DNA of 38,177 nucleotides, taken from positions 1 through 38,177 of the IMG/VR virus record IMGVR_UViG_3300031964_000524; one strand, written 5' to 3'. The position numbers and the translations under genes were made by a program. Source of the DNA: a virus. Positions 9,396-38,177 of this stretch are shown piece after piece (within the stretch, counting starts at the first letter, position 1; every line of letters begins with the position of its first letter). The notes beneath the pieces are model-generated. The model saw nothing but the letters and a program-made list of their open reading frames with translations. It was not told the origin of the DNA and ran no database searches.

Positions 9396-11626
9396 TGGCA
9401 GACAAGTCCGTTCCCATCGTCGATCCTTCGGGGCAGGTGCGCATGATCCCCGCAGCGCAGGTGGATGCTGCAATTGCCGCTGGTGGGAAGCATGCCATTA
9501 AAATGACAGACCCCAAAGGGACGCCGCGGTGGATTCCTGATGATCAAATGCATGCAGCTATCGCAGCCGGCGGAAAGATTGCCCCGGAGCAGTCATCAGG
9601 AGCGCTAAAGTTTTTGAAGAATTTCGCAGACGCATCAGGACTGTCAACAGTGGGGAATATTTTGGCGCACCCACTGAACGACATCAAGAACCTTGCCACG
9701 ATGACAGATCCCAATGCGATCGATAACCCAATTCGCAACGCAGTGGGCAGCACAATTCAGAACACGGTAGAGGAAGGCAAGGCAGCGTTTGACGCAGCCA
9801 AGCATGACCGGCGTGGCGAAGCCATCGCACATCTCGTCCAAGCGGTTCCGGTAGTGGGTCAGGTCGCAAAGGCGGCAGGCGAGTCCATTCCAAGTTCTGG
9901 CGACGAAAGCTACACAGGCTTGCTCAAGAGCGAAGTTACCGACCCTGCGACTATGGGCACGATTGTAGGCACAGCCGTATCACCAGCCGTGGCTGAAGGT
10001 TCAGGGCAAGTGCTCAAGATGGCAGGTAGAATTCCTTTGGCGCGTGGGGTAAATGTCGGCGACATTGCATCCGCAGTGAAGGACCCAGCACAAGCGCGCA
10101 GCGCAGCGCAACTAGCAAAAGAACGGTTCATCCAGCATGTGCGGCCCAAGCCGCTAGCGCTTACGCCGGCCGAACTCCAAGCTCAGAGCCTAGTCAAGGC
10201 GATGACTCCAGATGAGGCTGCTGTGCCAAACATCAAGAGCGCCTCAAGTGAAGTTGGCGATGCACTCGCCGCCGCCCAGCGTAAGGGAATCCCCATCAAC
10301 AGCAAGCTCGACGCCGCCAAGGCCTTCCGCGATCGCGCCGCAGATGTCCAGGCACACTACACCGACAATCTGCTACGTCCACACTCTGGCAAGTTCCAAA
10401 CGGTTCCGGAAGAGTACAACGGCGAGATGTCGGGCAATGGCAAGAACCAAGCGACCCTCGGACAAATCAATGACCGAGTGGATGTCATCAACCGCGAACT
10501 CAAGTCGAACTTCCGCAAAAAGCTGAAATCTCAGACGACTGAGGCGAATGCCAGCGATGCGGACCTTCTGGCGGAGAAGCAGCAGTTGACCAAGACCCTG
10601 CACGGCTCACTTGCGGACATGAATGGGCTTGAGCCGGATGACATTGCCGATGTTCGCCAGCGCGCCGGCAAGCTGCGCTCCCTTGCGGATGAGATGGAAT
10701 CTTCTGCAAACAAGGACACCGTGCAGGCTGGGCGCCGCGAGACTGGATCAACGTCCTCTCCGATCAAGGGAATAACCGAGAGTACTGTGGACAAGGTATC
10801 TGGTGGCCCCGAAATTGTCGGAAACCGAGTAGTAAAGGAGGCTCTCTCGAACTTTGACACCACCGAAAAGCCCTTACCGCAGCCAAAACTCCCCGACCCA
10901 GAAACGACAGCCACCACTCCGGAAGCCGCCCAGAGAGAGTTCCTGCGCCAGCAAGAGCTCGAGCAGAATTCGCAGGACGCAGCGATCCAAAGGAATGCAG
11001 AGGCAAACAAACTACGCGAACAGAATGTTGACACCCAGCGAGGCGTCGCGCAACAGGAAGCGATTAGAGCTACGCAAGGGGAGCAGACCGCAGCAGACCT
11101 CGCGGCTGATCGAAACAAGCAAGCGAACTCGCTTCGCGATCAAAACACCGACGTACAGCGTACCGCCGCCCAGCAAGAGGTGATTCGCCAGCAAGAGCTG
11201 GACAACGCGGCGCAGGATGCAGGAGCGGCACGCAGCGGGGTCGCAGACGAAGCGCGCGAGGGCAACAGGGCTGCATCCTTCCAAGCGCGCACAGGCAGGC
11301 CTTCTCCGGTCGATAAAGATGTGGTCACCAAGACTATGACGCAGCCCTCGCCCACCGCAGGGCAGGCCACGCCGCCCATCGCCCTTCCACCGCCCGCAGC
11401 AGACGTTGCCAGCACGGTGCCGCGCCAGACCACCGAGAGCAAGCAGGTAGTGGCTCCGGACGCCGCCAGAGGGGTCAGCGCGGTCAATATGGACGTTACG
11501 GTACCCGAAGCCACCCCCGCGACGCACATCTTCAGTAAAGCGGCAGCGGCTAAAGCTTCCCCAGAAACGGACGTGAACGCAGCGGCGGCGGCGGCGAAGG
11601 CTGCGGGCTATGAGGTTGTTGAATGA
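9395..11626 (+). CDS. Large putative internal virion/ejection protein with N-terminal tandem repeat
   Basis: 743 residues. The first 65 residues hold two copies of a short unit, DP(S/K)Gx(V/P)R(M/W)IP followed by about 10 residues and AAIAAGGK; similar short units occur at the N-termini of other phage virion proteins. A helical and partly hydrophobic Ala/Gly/Val region follows (about 130-215, including VVGQVAKAAG and GTIVGTAVSPAVA). Residues about 510-630 form long coiled coils with two related units (LREQNVDTQR and LRDQNTDVQR, each followed by AQQE). The C-terminus is Ala-rich. The gene overlaps its neighbours on both sides by 1-4 bases. The virion-internal role is inferred from architecture and context, without a family match. 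Confidence 0.5.
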   Translation: MADKSVPIVDPSGQVRMIPAAQVDAAIAAGGKHAIKMTDPKGTPRWIPDDQMHAAIAAGGKIAPEQSSGALKFLKNFADASGLSTVGNILAHPLNDIKNLATMTDPNAIDNPIRNAVGSTIQNTVEEGKAAFDAAKHDRRGEAIAHLVQAVPVVGQVAKAAGESIPSSGDESYTGLLKSEVTDPATMGTIVGTAVSPAVAEGSGQVLKMAGRIPLARGVNVGDIASAVKDPAQARSAAQLAKERFIQHVRPKPLALTPAELQAQSLVKAMTPDEAAVPNIKSASSEVGDALAAAQRKGIPINSKLDAAKAFRDRAADVQAHYTDNLLRPHSGKFQTVPEEYNGEMSGNGKNQATLGQINDRVDVINRELKSNFRKKLKSQTTEANASDADLLAEKQQLTKTLHGSLADMNGLEPDDIADVRQRAGKLRSLADEMESSANKDTVQAGRRETGSTSSPIKGITESTVDKVSGGPEIVGNRVVKEALSNFDTTEKPLPQPKLPDPETTATTPEAAQREFLRQQELEQNSQDAAIQRNAEANKLREQNVDTQRGVAQQEAIRATQGEQTAADLAADRNKQANSLRDQNTDVQRTAAQQEVIRQQELDNAAQDAGAARSGVADEAREGNRAASFQARTGRPSPVDKDVVTKTMTQPSPTAGQATPPIALPPPAADVASTVPRQTTESKQVVAPDAARGVSAVNMDVTVPEATPATHIFSKAAAAKASPETDVNAAAAAAKAAGYEVVE

Positions 11627-13068
11627 GCACCTACCATCACGGGTTGGTGCCAAAGTTTCATCACGGGCTGGTAGAGAAGTCTGCGCACGCACCGACTTCT
11701 AAAGGACTTACGCACCCAGCAGGAAAGGTCACTGGTATAGACGAATCCAGCGGGCTTCCCATTGTGCGTCGGGATGCTGCACACTCTCCCACAGACTCCC
11801 ATAACTCTCCCATCGGCAAAGAAGAACCTAAGACTGGCCGCGACATCCTGCACGTACCGAATGATGAGGATGAGATAGCCGCGAAGGTCAAGGCGGAGCA
11901 CCAGGGCATCAAAGACCGGTTGCATAAGGCCATTGCGCCGATCAAGGGTGCAAAGATTCACGGCTCCCGCGACGAAAAGCCAGAAGAGCGCGTAGACGAG
12001 AAGATTCAGGACGAGGGGCAGAACCCGCGCACCATTCCAGACTTCTCAGGCTTCCGAGTAGCCGTAGACTCGCATGATGCCCACAAGCAAGCGGCAGATG
12101 CCATCCGCAAAAACTTCAACGTGGTGCGGGAGAAAGACGAGTTTGAGAATGGTGCACCGGATACCTCCTTCCACGCGCACATGATGCAGGTCCAGCAGCC
12201 GGGAAGCGACGTCTCTCACGAAGTGCAGGTCTTACCCAAGCAGGTGGCGGACACCGCAGAAAGCACGCACGACCTCTACGAGAAAGCAAGAACAGGGGAT
12301 AAGGGCGCTGCGGAGACCATGAAGGGCAAGAACGAAGCCTCGTGGCAAGACTTCCAGAAAGGCCAAAATAAAATCTCTCCACACGGTGTCAAGAGTGATC
12401 TTCTTGGTACACTTCCAGCAAGTTCAAAGAACCAAAATTCTGGAAGCAAAGGAGGTCGCGGAGAATCGCCAGAGCAACCGAAGGCTGGGGCAGCGGGTGC
12501 CCCAGCTAAGGTACAGGTAAGAACGGGGATTACGGTAAAGCTTCCTGATGGGCGGACAGGGGTAGTGAAGGGAATCAGTCCGAAGGGTGAGGTAGAGGTA
12601 AAGCTTGCGGCCGGTGGGAGGGCGCGGGCAAATAAGAGCCAGGTGACGGTGGTGGACCCGAACGGGCCGGTAAAGGGTGTAACGGCGGGAACGCCAGGGC
12701 ACGACAAGCCAACGCCGGGAAGCATAGCAGTAGATTTGGATCGTACCATCGCACAATTTGATACTTACAAGGGAGCATCCGTCATTGGTGCACCTATTCC
12801 CGAGGAGGTTGAGCACGTCAAGCAACTACTCTCCGAGGGTAAGGATGTCTGGATATACACCGCGCGCGCGAAGGACCCTGAGGCTATCCCAGCAATCAAG
12901 GCATGGACAAGAAAGAACATCGGCGAAGAACTCCCAATTACGAATATTAAGTTCCCAGAGTTCGGCGTTTTCATTGACGACCGCGCGCAGTTGCCTGTTC
13001 AGATGCAGAAAGGGGGCCAAGATGCCAGCAGTCAGCGAGAGTCAGAGGAGATGGCTGTACACGCGTGA
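11623..13068 (+). CDS. RelA/SpoT-synthetase-like domain fused to KOW-like and HAD phosphatase domains
   Basis: 481 residues, start overlapping the previous stop (ATGA). Residues about 105-230 read like a RelA/SpoT-type nucleotidyltransferase domain: a basic GSRDEKPEER helix, IPDFSGFRVAVD (the 'D-x-x-G-x-R-v' strand), DEFENG, SFHAHM, and SHEVQVL (the 'E-V-Q' strand) followed by THDLYEKAR. The GTP-stacking Tyr of the classical Y-x-S-x-H motif is not conserved, so ppGpp synthesis is uncertain. Residues about 295-350 look KOW/SH3-like (LPDGRTGVVKGIS). Residues about 366-470 are a HAD phosphatase: VDLDRTI (DxDxT), IYTAR, and GVFIDDRA, resembling phage nucleotidases or polynucleotide 3'-phosphatases. 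Its place after the internal virion genes suggests it may be packaged and injected, but that is inference. Confidence 0.6.
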   Translation: MSTYHHGLVPKFHHGLVEKSAHAPTSKGLTHPAGKVTGIDESSGLPIVRRDAAHSPTDSHNSPIGKEEPKTGRDILHVPNDEDEIAAKVKAEHQGIKDRLHKAIAPIKGAKIHGSRDEKPEERVDEKIQDEGQNPRTIPDFSGFRVAVDSHDAHKQAADAIRKNFNVVREKDEFENGAPDTSFHAHMMQVQQPGSDVSHEVQVLPKQVADTAESTHDLYEKARTGDKGAAETMKGKNEASWQDFQKGQNKISPHGVKSDLLGTLPASSKNQNSGSKGGRGESPEQPKAGAAGAPAKVQVRTGITVKLPDGRTGVVKGISPKGEVEVKLAAGGRARANKSQVTVVDPNGPVKGVTAGTPGHDKPTPGSIAVDLDRTIAQFDTYKGASVIGAPIPEEVEHVKQLLSEGKDVWIYTARAKDPEAIPAIKAWTRKNIGEELPITNIKFPEFGVFIDDRAQLPVQMQKGGQDASSQRESEEMAVHA

Positions 13069-17733: not shown

Positions 17734-19479
17734 CTACCTCGGTGTCTGTAGTGCGTTCTGAGGCTCTGGGATGTCCACCACCAGCGCAGCGGACGTAAGC
17801 AGCAATCCTGCAAGCTCTGCGGAGTTCTGGAGGGCTAGGCGGACTACCTTGGCGGGGTCGATGATGCCTGCGTCCACCAAGTCCTCAAACTCGTCTGTGG
17901 CGGCGTTGTACCCCCAACGTACACGAACGCTGGCCAAAGCTTTGCGCTCATCTTCGGTCAGCGCACGGTATGAGCCCTGTGGACGGTCCTGCATTGCGTC
18001 GAGGATCTTTTCCCATCCCGTCTGCCTATCTACTACCTGCGAAACGATCACATCGCCACTCTTACCGGCGTTGCTCGCCAGACGATGCAGGGGTTGGGTA
18101 AGTGCCTGGGCTACGATCTCCGCCCCCACTTTCTCCTCGGAATCCATGCTTTCGATAGCGAATTCCAGCGCAGGAAGACACCGAATCAGCGCCACCCCGC
18201 CACCAGGCACAATGCCTTCTTTCAGCGAAGCCTGCGCAGACCGCACAGCATCCTCCACGCGATCACGCTTTTCGAGGAGTTTCGACTTTCCGCTAGATCC
18301 AATCTTGATGACGGCAACCGAACCCAGAAGGGTTGCTATGCGCCTCTCAATCTGCGCCTTCTCGAAATCCTTCGCCTCTGGGTCAATGAGTCGTGTCCGC
18401 AACTCATCCAAGCGCGTATCAAGACGGATAGGCGAACCATGCGATCCCATAAATGTTGTATTTCTTGGAGTAATCACTGCTTCATCGACAGAACCAAAGT
18501 CTTCGGCACTGGCTTTGGTGGGGTCATCGCCGTTGGCAACCGTGTAAGCGCGCGCGCCTGCCCAAATTGCGACATCTTGCATTTCGTCCTTCTTTGTGTT
18601 GCCGGAACCTGGAAGCTTGATGGGAAGGATGAAGGCGATTGGAGGCTGACGCTTCAGTGCTCTCTGCTCTGGAGTGTTGGCAGCTAAAGCTTGGAGCGCA
18701 CCTTCGGCAATGTCCTCTGCAATGAGAATTAGTGGAACTAGCCCGCAAACCTGACCGTATCTTTGCATGAACGCAATCATCTGTCCTTGGTCAATCAAGC
18801 GTCGGTCAGTAATGAAAACGTTGCATTGGCGGAACATCGTCATGCCCTTAGCTTGGTCTGCCATAAAGTCCGAGGAAATGAAGCCGCGTTCAAACTGAAG
18901 GCCGCGCGAGATTTCCAAGGTGGTCTCAAGCGTTGGCGATTCAGCAACCCTTACCGAACCCTCAAGGCCAACCTTATGGACAGCACGAGCGATCACATCA
19001 CCCATCTCAACATCCGAATTAGCAGATATGGTAGCGACTCGGCGGATGGTCTCGAGGTCTGACTGGTCAACCGGCTGCGCAAGTTCCTTTAGCGCTGCGA
19101 CGACAACCGCAACGCCCTTCTGGATGCCGCGCTCGACCGACATAGCGTTATGTCCGGCTGCCACAACCTTGACGCCCTCTTTGAAGATTGCGCGAGTAAG
19201 GATGGTGGCAGCGGTGGTTCCGTCGCCGGCCTCCTGGTTGGTCTTGCGGGCAGCTTCCTGAATGAGCTTGGCACCCTCATTCTCGAACGGGTCAGGAACC
19301 GAGATACCTTCTGCCACCGTAACGCCGTCTTTGGTGACCAGCGCTGCACCGAAGGGACGGCCAAGAATCACCGTCCCACTGCGCGGCCCGAGGGTTGCCC
19401 CTACGGTGTCCGCAACTGCGTCAAAGCCGCGGAGGATGGCTGCGTGCGCATCTCCGCCCTTCAAAATGCTCTTTGCCAT
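17734..19479 (-). CDS. groL: Phage-encoded GroEL-type chaperonin (Hsp60), divergent
   Basis: About 581 residues; bacterial GroEL has about 545. Equatorial ATP-site motifs are kept: ATLGPRS near 28-34, GDGTT at 85-89, VEDAV near 407, EGIVPGGG near 420-427, and WGYNAAT plus DAGIIDP near 521-541. The apical domain (about 190-375) is recognisable (LQFERGFISSDF, LILIAEDI) but strongly diverged, including the substrate and GroES binding face. Odd points: an extra segment of about 35 residues before the YNAAT motif (about 483-518) and a C-terminus lacking the Gly-Gly-Met tail. It is probably an active ATPase folding chamber for phage proteins. No groES gene is visible here, so it may use host GroES or work alone as some phage chaperonins do. 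AGGAG lies 4 bases upstream of the ATG. Confidence 0.93.
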   Translation of the reverse strand: MAKSILKGGDAHAAILRGFDAVADTVGATLGPRSGTVILGRPFGAALVTKDGVTVAEGISVPDPFENEGAKLIQEAARKTNQEAGDGTTAATILTRAIFKEGVKVVAAGHNAMSVERGIQKGVAVVVAALKELAQPVDQSDLETIRRVATISANSDVEMGDVIARAVHKVGLEGSVRVAESPTLETTLEISRGLQFERGFISSDFMADQAKGMTMFRQCNVFITDRRLIDQGQMIAFMQRYGQVCGLVPLILIAEDIAEGALQALAANTPEQRALKRQPPIAFILPIKLPGSGNTKKDEMQDVAIWAGARAYTVANGDDPTKASAEDFGSVDEAVITPRNTTFMGSHGSPIRLDTRLDELRTRLIDPEAKDFEKAQIERRIATLLGSVAVIKIGSSGKSKLLEKRDRVEDAVRSAQASLKEGIVPGGGVALIRCLPALEFAIESMDSEEKVGAEIVAQALTQPLHRLASNAGKSGDVIVSQVVDRQTGWEKILDAMQDRPQGSYRALTEDERKALASVRVRWGYNAATDEFEDLVDAGIIDPAKVVRLALQNSAELAGLLLTSAALVVDIPEPQNALQTPR

Positions 19480-19485
19480 GGGCTC

Positions 19486-19788
19486 CTACTTCTTTGCGGT
19501 GGGTTTGATGACGCAGACGGGATCACCAGTCTGGCTCATCTGGAGAGTGGACGTTTCGCCGCAAACCTGCTGCATCTTGGTGATCTCAGACTGGAACTGG
19601 CTCTGTGCTTCTTTGGCTTGCGCAGATGACTGAATCATCTGTGACTGTGCCTTGAAGAACTCAGCCCGGAGGGCATCGGAAATTGCAGGCGCTGCGGCGG
19701 GAGCGGGTGCGGGCGACGGCTTTACGGTTTGGGCGGGGAGCGAGAGAGTTGCAAACGCAACCCCCAAGACGATGAGGCTACGGTTCAT
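19486..19788 (-). CDS. Small exported coiled-coil protein
   Basis: 100 residues. The N-terminus MNRSLIVLGVAFATLSLPAQ is a good Sec signal peptide with cleavage predicted after Pro-Ala. A Pro/Ala linker (about 24-40) leads to a helical, Gln/Ser-rich coiled-coil segment (about 40-75) and a short tail with two cysteines (about 76 and 91) that could pair in the periplasm. AAGGAG precedes the ATG, and the start overlaps the upstream HD gene by 11 bases. Position between an alarmone hydrolase and a chaperonin gives no clear clue; a spanin-like or periplasmic scaffold role is possible but unproven. Confidence 0.6.
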   Translation of the reverse strand: MNRSLIVLGVAFATLSLPAQTVKPSPAPAPAAAPAISDALRAEFFKAQSQMIQSSAQAKEAQSQFQSEITKMQQVCGETSTLQMSQTGDPVCVIKPTAKK

Positions 19789-20287
19789 GGGTTTCTCCTT
19801 TTGAATTGGTGTTTTCTGCCATCCACAAGATATTCAATGCGTTGGCGTATTTGTTGCGGAGCCGATTACGTACTTCTGGGGCAAGCTTGTTGAGCCGATC
19901 TGCGCGTGAATTGTCGGTGAGGTCGGCTACTTTCACCTTCAATGCAAGGGGGTTGAGGGCAACTTGGCGGATATAGTCCTCATATGCCTTTCCCGTTTCG
20001 CGATAGAGTTCTAACAGAGCTTCAAAACACTCTTCGCTCACCAATGGGCGCAGAGATTCGGCTCCAAACTCTGTATCCTCGAGCACGTCATGGAGAACCC
20101 CCACTATGGCCGCGTCGACGTCGGGCAATAGAGATATTCCTACGCGCAGGCAGTGCCAAATATAGGGTTCTCCTACCTTGTCCACTTGCCCATTGTGCGC
20201 AAAGCACGCGAAGGCTATCGCTCTGCGGAGATGGTCTATGTCTGAATTGTGGAGGGATTGGATAGAGGGAACTTCGGGATCGGCCAT
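19778..20287 (-). CDS. SpoT/MESH1-like HD-domain hydrolase (predicted small alarmone hydrolase)
   Basis: 169 residues, about the size of stand-alone (p)ppGpp hydrolases. HD-superfamily metal ligands are in order: AHNGQ (H31), YIWHCLRV (H45), GVLHDVLEDT (H66, D67, E70, D71) and VKVADLTDN (D122 and N126). The GEPYIxH and LHDVLEDT strings are typical of RelA/SpoT hydrolase domains. No synthetase or regulatory domain is attached. The Arg of the usual GQxRxSG motif is Lys/Val here, so substrate choice may differ. It is the first gene of the minus-strand operon. It may degrade ppGpp or a related nucleotide during infection; that is inferred from family. Confidence 0.78.
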   Translation of the reverse strand: MADPEVPSIQSLHNSDIDHLRRAIAFACFAHNGQVDKVGEPYIWHCLRVGISLLPDVDAAIVGVLHDVLEDTEFGAESLRPLVSEECFEALLELYRETGKAYEDYIRQVALNPLALKVKVADLTDNSRADRLNKLAPEVRNRLRNKYANALNILWMAENTNSKGETHEP

Positions 20288-36205: not shown

Positions 36206-36997
36206 ATGAGCCACATTCTCAATGTCCGCAAGGATACTTTTGATCCTCGCGACCACGTAGTAGCCCCCAACGCTCCCGCGTCTCCGCTGATCATCAGCTA
36301 CCGCTCGCAGGTGCCATACATCAAGGATCAGGGACAATTGGGCAGCTGCACGGCCCACGCCGCAACGGAACACTTTGAGCGGGCCGTCCGCCAGATGAAG
36401 TCTCAGGTACCCCTAAGCTATGCCCGAGCCACCATCCGCCTCTCTCCCCTCTTCCAGTACGCCCAGGAGCGCATCGCCGAAGGAACCTTTGCGGAGGACG
36501 CCGGCGCAGACTCCCGCACCATCTTTACCGTGCTGAGCTCGGTTGGGTGCTGTCTTGAGTCCTCAGATCCCTATGCCTCCACTAATCTGCTAAAGATGCC
36601 CACCGCAGCACAAGTGGCAGAGGCGGCCAATTTCAAGTTTCAGGCCTACCATCGCATCATGGACGTCGCCACCGCAAAGACGGTCCTGCAATCGAACTAC
36701 ACCTTTACTGTGGGAACCCCACTCTTCCAGCAATTCCAGAGCGACCAGGCCGCGGAGGACGGATTGATTGCCATGCCATCGGGTTCCTCGATCGGCGGCC
36801 ACGAAATGCATGTTATAGGCTGCGATGATACAAAGCAGGTTCTCGGGCAAGTTGGGGCATTTGAGTGTCAGAATTCATGGGCGGACACGTGGGGAGATAA
36901 GGGATTTGCGTGGATCCCCTACGCGTACTTTGAAGCGCTGCAAGATCAATGGGATTTTTGGCTCGGACACTATGGCCGTCAATGGCAGGCTCAGTAG
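36206..36997 (+). CDS. Papain-like cysteine protease (peptidase family C1A)
   Basis: 263 residues. The C1A triad is visible: Cys48 in KDQGQLGSCTAHAATEHF, His near 199 in GGHEMHVIGCDD, and Asn near 222 in ECQNSWADTWGDKGFAWIPY (the 'NSWG' region). Gln43 of DQGQ supplies the oxyanion-hole Gln expected before the Cys. The mature enzyme size (about 220 residues) is present, without a long pro-region or signal peptide. It follows another cysteine-nucleophile hydrolase in the lysis operon. It may cut envelope proteins, process a virion protein or act as a host-directed protease. Its last 7 bases overlap the convergent helicase gene. Confidence 0.85.
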   Translation: MSHILNVRKDTFDPRDHVVAPNAPASPLIISYRSQVPYIKDQGQLGSCTAHAATEHFERAVRQMKSQVPLSYARATIRLSPLFQYAQERIAEGTFAEDAGADSRTIFTVLSSVGCCLESSDPYASTNLLKMPTAAQVAEAANFKFQAYHRIMDVATAKTVLQSNYTFTVGTPLFQQFQSDQAAEDGLIAMPSGSSIGGHEMHVIGCDDTKQVLGQVGAFECQNSWADTWGDKGFAWIPYAYFEALQDQWDFWLGHYGRQWQAQ

Positions 36998-38177
36998 GCG
37001 TTCCCGAACTCGCCCTGCACCGGGGTACCCTCGACCTCACCCCACCGCATGTATGCTCCGTTGAATTTCACTTGGCAGGTTCCGGTATCGCCTTCTCTCT
37101 GCTTGGCGATGATAATTTCGTCTGGTTCCTGGCTCTTGCGATCAAAGTAGATTGGCCGATGAAGGAACTGGACCATGTCGGCATCCTCTTCGATATCTCC
37201 TGAGTCTTTGAGGCTGTCCATGTGGGGGCGTGCGTCGCCTTTGCCATCGTGCCGGCGAAGTTGGCAGAGCAGCACTACCGCAATGTCTATCTCCTGTGCG
37301 GTCTGCTTTAGGCTGTCAGTCTGCTCTCCGATGATTTCGTGCTTGGGCATCCCCTTGCGGTAAACGTCGGTACTCTTCAACTTTGATAGCTGGTCGATAA
37401 AGGCTATGTCAAGACCTCCCCGGCGCTTCATGGAGCTGCACATGGCCCGGATGCGTGTGCAGGTCATCCTGGTGGAGTCGGTGATGTACAGCGGAGCGTC
37501 CATAATGCGAGACTGGGCGTCTTGCATCCCATGGCGCTGTTCGCGGGTAAGCGTGCCACCTTGGATATCTCGATAAGGCACGCTGGCGACGTTTGAAAGC
37601 ATGCGGCGAATAAAGTCGTTCTTGTCCTGCTCGAGAGTAAAGATCGCCGTTGGACGCTTCAGCACTACTGCTGAATGATAGGCGTCGCAGATCATTCGAG
37701 CGGTTTTGCCCATGGAGGGTCTGGCCGCGAGGATACTCAACGCCTTGGGCTGGTAGCCCATAGTCATCTTGTCGAATTCCGTAATGCCCGTGTGGATGCC
37801 CTGCACGGTCGCCATGCGCTCGTACATCTCATCGATGCTTCCGTAGGCGAAGAATACCTTGGAGACGTGCTCGAGCTCTTGGGTGACCCCTTCCGCGAGT
37901 AGGTTCTGCATTTGCTCGGCGATGGCGGGGATTATGGTCTCGGCGCTCTCTTCGTCTGCCGCGGCGACCATGCCGTCATTGAAGACGTTGGAGAGGCGCC
38001 GGCCCACACTCTTGGCCTTTACGATCTTCACATAGCTGTCGACGTTTGGTTTTGCGGGGATGCCCTCGGTGAGCATTGCTAAGTATGCGGGCCCGCCCAC
38101 AGCATCAAGCTCTTTACGTTTCCCCAGCGTGTCCATCACCGTAACCAGGTCAACAGACTGATTATTGGCCAGCATGT
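36991..38177 (-). CDS. dnaB: Replicative DNA helicase DnaB (N-terminus beyond the window)
   Basis: 394 residues are visible from an internal ATG at 38175; the DnaB N-terminal domain normally starts further upstream, so the gene is probably cut by the right edge. Present are the end of the N-terminal domain (SVDLVTVMDTLGKR), the linker, and the RecA-like C-terminal domain: Walker A ARPSMGKT near 151-158, LEQDKNDFIRRML, Walker B-like DIAFIDQLSKL near 255, and LLCQLRRH (sensor) with SGDIEEDADMV. It forms a hexameric ring that unwinds DNA at the phage replication fork. Convergent to the lysis operon with a 7-base overlap. Leftward transcription suggests a replication operon beyond the window. Confidence 0.93.
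   Translation of the reverse strand, partial: MLANNQSVDLVTVMDTLGKRKELDAVGGPAYLAMLTEGIPAKPNVDSYVKIVKAKSVGRRLSNVFNDGMVAAADEESAETIIPAIAEQMQNLLAEGVTQELEHVSKVFFAYGSIDEMYERMATVQGIHTGITEFDKMTMGYQPKALSILAARPSMGKTARMICDAYHSAVVLKRPTAIFTLEQDKNDFIRRMLSNVASVPYRDIQGGTLTREQRHGMQDAQSRIMDAPLYITDSTRMTCTRIRAMCSSMKRRGGLDIAFIDQLSKLKSTDVYRKGMPKHEIIGEQTDSLKQTAQEIDIAVVLLCQLRRHDGKGDARPHMDSLKDSGDIEEDADMVQFLHRPIYFDRKSQEPDEIIIAKQREGDTGTCQVKFNGAYMRWGEVEGTPVQGEFGNAY

Follow-up and report, generated by a model that had tools for sequence, protein, structure and literature searches.

An Aph1-type hydrolase of the alarmone superfamily in a phage chaperonin operon

Why would a phage carry a stand-alone alarmone-type hydrolase next to its chaperonin gene, and which alarmone would the enzyme cleave? 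The locus that raises this question lies on IMG/VR virus record IMGVR_UViG_3300031964_000524, all 38,177 nucleotides of which were analysed and are referred to below as the window; the gene, at 19778-20287 on the minus strand, encodes an HD hydrolase of 169 residues. A sequence-only reading had labelled the product SpoT/MESH1-like and proposed that it clears ppGpp, which would keep host transcription and translation active during infection, or that it counters toxic alarmone synthetases used in phage defence. Based on sequence comparisons and predicted structures, we consider it probable, at roughly 0.65, that the enzyme is of the type of Aph1 (adenosine 3'-pyrophosphohydrolase), has (p)ppApp rather than ppGpp as its substrate and protects the cell during infection.

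Family of the hydrolase

The open reading frame is real and retains its metal-binding and catalytic residues, as the sequence-only reading had stated for the metal ligands. A Shine-Dalgarno-like AGAAAGG lies upstream of the ATG. The HD1/HD2 motif HNGQVDKVGEPYIWH (residues 31-45; 20153-20197, minus strand), located from alignments, includes the metal ligand H45; the HD3/HD4 motif HDVLED (residues 66-71; 20075-20092, minus strand) holds the metal-binding HD and the catalytic ED; and the HD6 motif KVADLTDN (residues 119-126; 19910-19933, minus strand) holds the metal ligand D122 and N126. Both strings highlighted earlier, GEPYIxH and LHDVLEDT, are present, the former as GEPYIWH at residues 39-45 and the latter at residues 65-72. 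In an alignment of 43 homologues, H45, H66, D67, E70, D71, K119, D122 and N126 were unchanged. The protein matched PHROG 990, annotated as a metal-dependent phosphohydrolase, with an E value of 6e-36, and gave a sub-threshold match to Pfam HD_4 (18.7 bits versus a cut-off of 27.2).

By both sequence and fold, the closest relative with a solved structure is Aph1. In a phmmer search of solved structures, Aph1 of B. caccae (7smg) was the best match (3e-22), followed by Rel (1e-7) and fly Mesh1 (0.004); YfbR was absent from the matches. The AlphaFold model of the hydrolase, with a predicted local distance difference test (pLDDT) score of 93, aligned to 7smg with a Z score of 21.7 and 1.3 Å over 141 residues, and the top four Foldseek matches of the same model were the four chains of 7smg. 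With Aph1 and its S. pneumoniae and Mannheimia counterparts the window hydrolase shares the single HD domain, the fold, 34-39% identity, an Asp at the guanine-stacking position and a phage or prophage setting, although it is ~20-30 residues longer. The P. aeruginosa small alarmone hydrolase (PaSAH, 6yvc), MESH1 and SpoT likewise share the fold and the metal-site residues, with Z scores of 16-17 (PaSAH 17.2, MESH1 16.7, Rel/SpoT ~16), but at 22-25% identity and on a separate branch of the tree. In this tree of 56 proteins, the hydrolase lay among the Aph1-like proteins and outside the MESH1/Lmo0812/Rel/SpoT group (7 rows, support 95/90); forks within the Aph1-like set were mostly unresolved, and deeper forks were weak. 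The SpoT/MESH1-like label therefore does not describe the protein well. The broader statement that a phage carries a stand-alone hydrolase of the alarmone superfamily stands, and the comparisons and models place this single-domain protein in the Aph1 branch of that superfamily.

The same comparisons bear on the idea of a YfbR-type HD nucleotidase that would act on deoxynucleoside monophosphates in nucleotide salvage. Such enzymes and the hydrolase are both short HD-fold proteins, and in one related phage the hydrolase gene adjoins an annotated thymidylate kinase gene. However, the Z scores for YfbR and DatZ were 6.4 and 7.1, compared with 21.7 for Aph1, and the motifs QxDKxGxPYIxH and KxADxxxN are those of the alarmone type. 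The protein does not cluster with YfbR-like nucleotidases, and we regard a salvage role of this kind as very improbable.

Phages are not confined to Aph1-like enzymes. In Dickeya phage JA13, the HD protein best matches Lmo0812, Rel and MESH1 and retains the guanine-stacking Arg; it is of the MESH1/Lmo0812 type, and both hydrolase types therefore occur in phages.

Substrate and possible targets

In A. baumannii SpoT, R45 stacks on the guanine base, and ppGpp hydrolysis is lost when this residue is replaced (PMC9974481). In the motif alignment, this position corresponds to Asp36 of the window hydrolase (codon at 20180-20182, minus strand); 7smg likewise has Asp, as do the homologues from S. pneumoniae and Mannheimia, whereas MESH1, Rel and SpoT, including E. 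coli SpoT, carry Arg. Of 14 phage homologues gathered with no motif filter, 12 have Asp at position 36; this is the fair figure, as the high share among pattern-scan loci follows in part from the patterns used to find them. The hydrolase gene of the S. pneumoniae and Mannheimia homologues is located directly downstream of a MuF gene and a small open reading frame. In Apk2-IapK-Aph1 modules, Aph1 cleaves pppApp and relieves Apk2 toxicity (PMC12226406). Because Asp36 is shared with 7smg and with homologues in the Apk2-IapK-Aph1 layout, (p)ppApp is favoured as the substrate. The proposal that the enzyme clears ppGpp is disfavoured, since Asp36 replaces the Arg that SpoT requires for ppGpp hydrolysis.

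Several observations weigh against this assignment. PaSAH also has no guanine-stacking Arg and is cited as degrading both nucleotides (PMC12846349), so that the missing Arg does not settle specificity for (p)ppApp. The branch that unites 7smg, the window hydrolase and the other Aph1-like rows is weak (83/54). Moreover, the window hydrolase is linked to groEL, whereas Aph1 is linked to the MuF-Apk2 toxin and IapK. The Apk2-IapK-Aph1 layout was not encountered at this locus, where the neighbours are a signal-peptide-like protein and groEL, and no MuF domain was found among the ten window proteins scanned or in two related contigs (G001 and G002). A broad-range alarmone hydrolase that cleaves (p)ppGpp as well would agree with the superfamily and active site common to the hydrolase and (p)ppGpp enzymes, and PaSAH, cited for both nucleotides, is the second-best structural match. 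We nevertheless consider broad specificity unlikely, as the hydrolase is clearly closer to Aph1 in sequence and fold than to PaSAH, MESH1 or Rel, and has Asp where SpoT needs Arg for ppGpp hydrolysis.

As an Aph1-type protein, the metal-dependent HD enzyme would take the 3'-pyrophosphate off (p)ppApp and regenerate ADP or ATP, and would in this way guard the infected cell's nucleotide pool against a toxic alarmone synthetase. Candidate sources of such a toxin are a toxic small alarmone synthetase (toxSAS) used by the host in defence, a secreted toxin, or a synthetase-fold domain encoded by the phage itself at 11623-13068.

The first of these targets, a host toxSAS of the FaRel, CapRel or Apk type with no connection to the phage's own proteins, is a sub-case of the Aph1-type reading. 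Two reports describe toxSAS enzymes as anti-phage defences and interbacterial toxins (PMC12691689; PMC11559606), an 'HD-alarmone PDease' has been proposed as a counter-defence of jumbo phages (PMC7824862), and the hydrolase family is scattered across unrelated phages. The hydrolase taken alone is ordinary. Homologues were detected in 301 phage records (E <= 1e-5) and the family in 346 plasmid records, and a scan across 85,000 species genomes yielded 418 confirmed stretches, the best 80 of which were kept; its occurrence in phages has been published in a jumbo-phage survey (PMC7824862) and for phage Adele (PMC12846349). This same abundance on plasmids and bacterial genomes, where its role need not be anti-defence, speaks against a dedicated counter-defence, as does the failure to find a target defence or to identify the host; PADLOC gave no match for the five proteins tried. 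Countering toxic alarmone synthetases, as suggested earlier, fits the family, with the phage's own synthetase-like domain as the alternative target; as an account of this particular gene, we regard host counter-defence as possible and hold it tentatively.

The chaperonin operon

The hydrolase gene is the first of an operon on the minus strand. It overlaps by 11 bases with the second gene (19486-19788, minus strand), which encodes a small protein of 100 residues with a signal-peptide-like N terminus and an Ala/Pro-rich stretch. After a further 6 bases, the operon ends with the gene of a phage GroEL (Cpn60) of 581 residues (17734-19479, minus strand; Pfam Cpn60_TCP1 5e-62, PHROG 5725 1.5e-125). 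Strong Shine-Dalgarno sequences are located upstream of the second and third genes, and a scan for promoters and terminators gave no excess relative to shuffled sequences.

This arrangement is conserved. Among terminase-related phages, the hydrolase gene lies upstream of groEL on the same strand in all five that carry it (the window, which is the same virus as G001, and G002, G057, G058 and G065), with the order HD hydrolase, small protein, an optional groES, and groEL. A counterpart of the small protein is found between the two genes in G002, G057, G058 and G065, and in G002 a GroES-like gene with zinc-finger-like repeats is positioned just upstream of groEL. The five groEL-linked hydrolases form one clade (95/65), within which the four other than that of the window group with support of 99/96. 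The hydrolase thus sits in a conserved phage chaperonin operon. Two further relatives (G051 and G052) have groEL without the hydrolase, and in G052 the small protein gene adjoins groEL upstream; in G050 and G055, groEL is at the contig edge, and these contigs are uninformative on the linkage. PHROG 990 phages (Vequintavirinae, Pakpunavirus, Streptomyces phages and others) share the motifs of the window hydrolase, but their genes are found beside those for thymidylate kinase, helicase and primase, and no chaperonin is encoded in the regions that were read.

The contig G001 carries a 100%-identical copy of the hydrolase and is 99.97% identical to the window across 21.7 kb. Since G001 extends 8.3 kb past the right end of the window, the window is a fragment. 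At this end, a DnaB-like helicase gene (36991-38175) is truncated and continues on G001; the gene before it, late in the genome (36206-36997), encodes a protein of 263 residues from a phage peptidase family (PHROG 16701, 5.8e-16).

A predicted synthetase-fold domain encoded by the phage

The sequence-only reading had noted the lack of a synthetase domain, which is correct for the hydrolase protein but not for the phage. In a region of virion genes, the open reading frame at 11623-13068 (plus strand) encodes a protein of 481 residues, in which a synthetase domain of the RelA/SpoT type is combined with a HAD-like region at the C terminus (PHROG 1238, 2.4e-9). Pfam RelA_SpoT matched it with 27.2 bits (cut-off 27.0), and with 30.3 bits in the genome search. 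The small alarmone synthetase (SAS)-like domain as modelled spans 11845-12387 (plus strand). The model, built from six sequences, had a pLDDT of 86; Foldseek matched it to RelP (5e-7), and VIA-align gave Z scores of 17.4 for B. subtilis SAS1, 13.5 for CapRel and 13.1 for Tas1. Residues K45, K53, D66 and E126 (model numbering) are invariant in relatives at 22-50% identity, with a spacing that matches K243/K251/D264/E323 of RelSeq. The Tyr of the syn3 motif, which stacks the acceptor base, is missing, and the domain has DTSFH instead of the consensus GYxSLH. Both the fold and the K/K/D/E set are shared with small alarmone synthetases and with polyvalent RelA/SpoT domains, and the prediction of a small alarmone synthetase fold is well supported by sequence and model.

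Direct searches, with the SAS-like protein against viral contigs and with its catalytic stretch by tblastn against phages, returned no relatives and no credible match, respectively, and relatives were therefore reached via terminase and hidden Markov model searches. The SAS-like domain recurs in eight related contigs, where the open frames that hold it range from 604 to 3693 residues; whereas the window protein has 481 residues, with the SAS-like domain followed by the HAD-like region, its relatives are multidomain proteins of 600-3700 residues. RelA/SpoT domains in phage polyvalent proteins have been published (Iyer et al. 2017, PMC5512222). The polyvalent protein of G002 (L154 1-5058) combines SAS-like, 2'-5' RNA ligase/2H and DdrB-ParB domains; its 2H part has a weak match to the anti-CBASS protein Acb1 (E 0.05), and a P-loop region appears zeta-toxin-like by eye. 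From its gene position, the window protein may be packaged in the virion.

The hydrolase and the SAS-like domain occur together in the window, G002 and G065, and Sinorhizobium phage phiN3 has both an annotated RelA/SpoT protein (gp279, L227 861-1613) and an Aph1-like hydrolase (gp398). One explanation is immunity to the phage's own synthetase, in which the hydrolase would undo damage by the SAS-fold domain in the form of (p)ppApp, (p)ppGpp or pyrophosphorylated RNA. The domain would act after delivery or within the producing cell, in parallel with Aph1 and MuF-Apk2, for which the Apk2-Aph1 pair is a precedent (PMC12226406). Like host counter-defence, this is a target sub-case of the Aph1-type reading, and the two are not exclusive. 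It is favoured by the well-supported fold and catalytic residues of the domain and by the co-occurrence of both parts. On the other hand, the genes are ~7 kb apart and on opposite strands, and the relatives G051 and G052 (65 kb) keep the SAS-like domain and groEL with no hydrolase. The domain also has SFH instead of the GxN that is said to mark the Apk2 syn3 site (PMC12226406), in addition to the missing Tyr. A search with PF04607 across 60 hydrolase-bearing viral records gave 4 weak matches and 0 above the cut-off, an absence that is uninformative because PF04607 was also blank on a Mannheimia phage with an Apk2-layout MuF gene. We consider immunity of this kind unlikely as the specific target.

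A strict toxin-antitoxin pair was set aside, as G051 and G052 carry the SAS-like domain without the hydrolase. A functional link between the two proteins is possible but not obligatory. They could also form a make-and-break alarmone system that times host shut-down, with a virion-borne SAS-type enzyme and an Aph1-type hydrolase from the chaperonin operon; the former would enter with the DNA and alter host nucleotides or RNA, and the latter would later clear the product and restore ATP. This we regard as quite doubtful.

If the enzyme acts on (p)ppApp, hydrolases for a nucleotide known mainly as the product of toxins would be maintained by phages beyond the MuF-toxin setting, and the hydrolase-chaperonin clade would be a place to ask why they do so. 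Because these phages also have a predicted SAS-fold domain, the published proposal of phage-delivered alarmone synthetases becomes testable.
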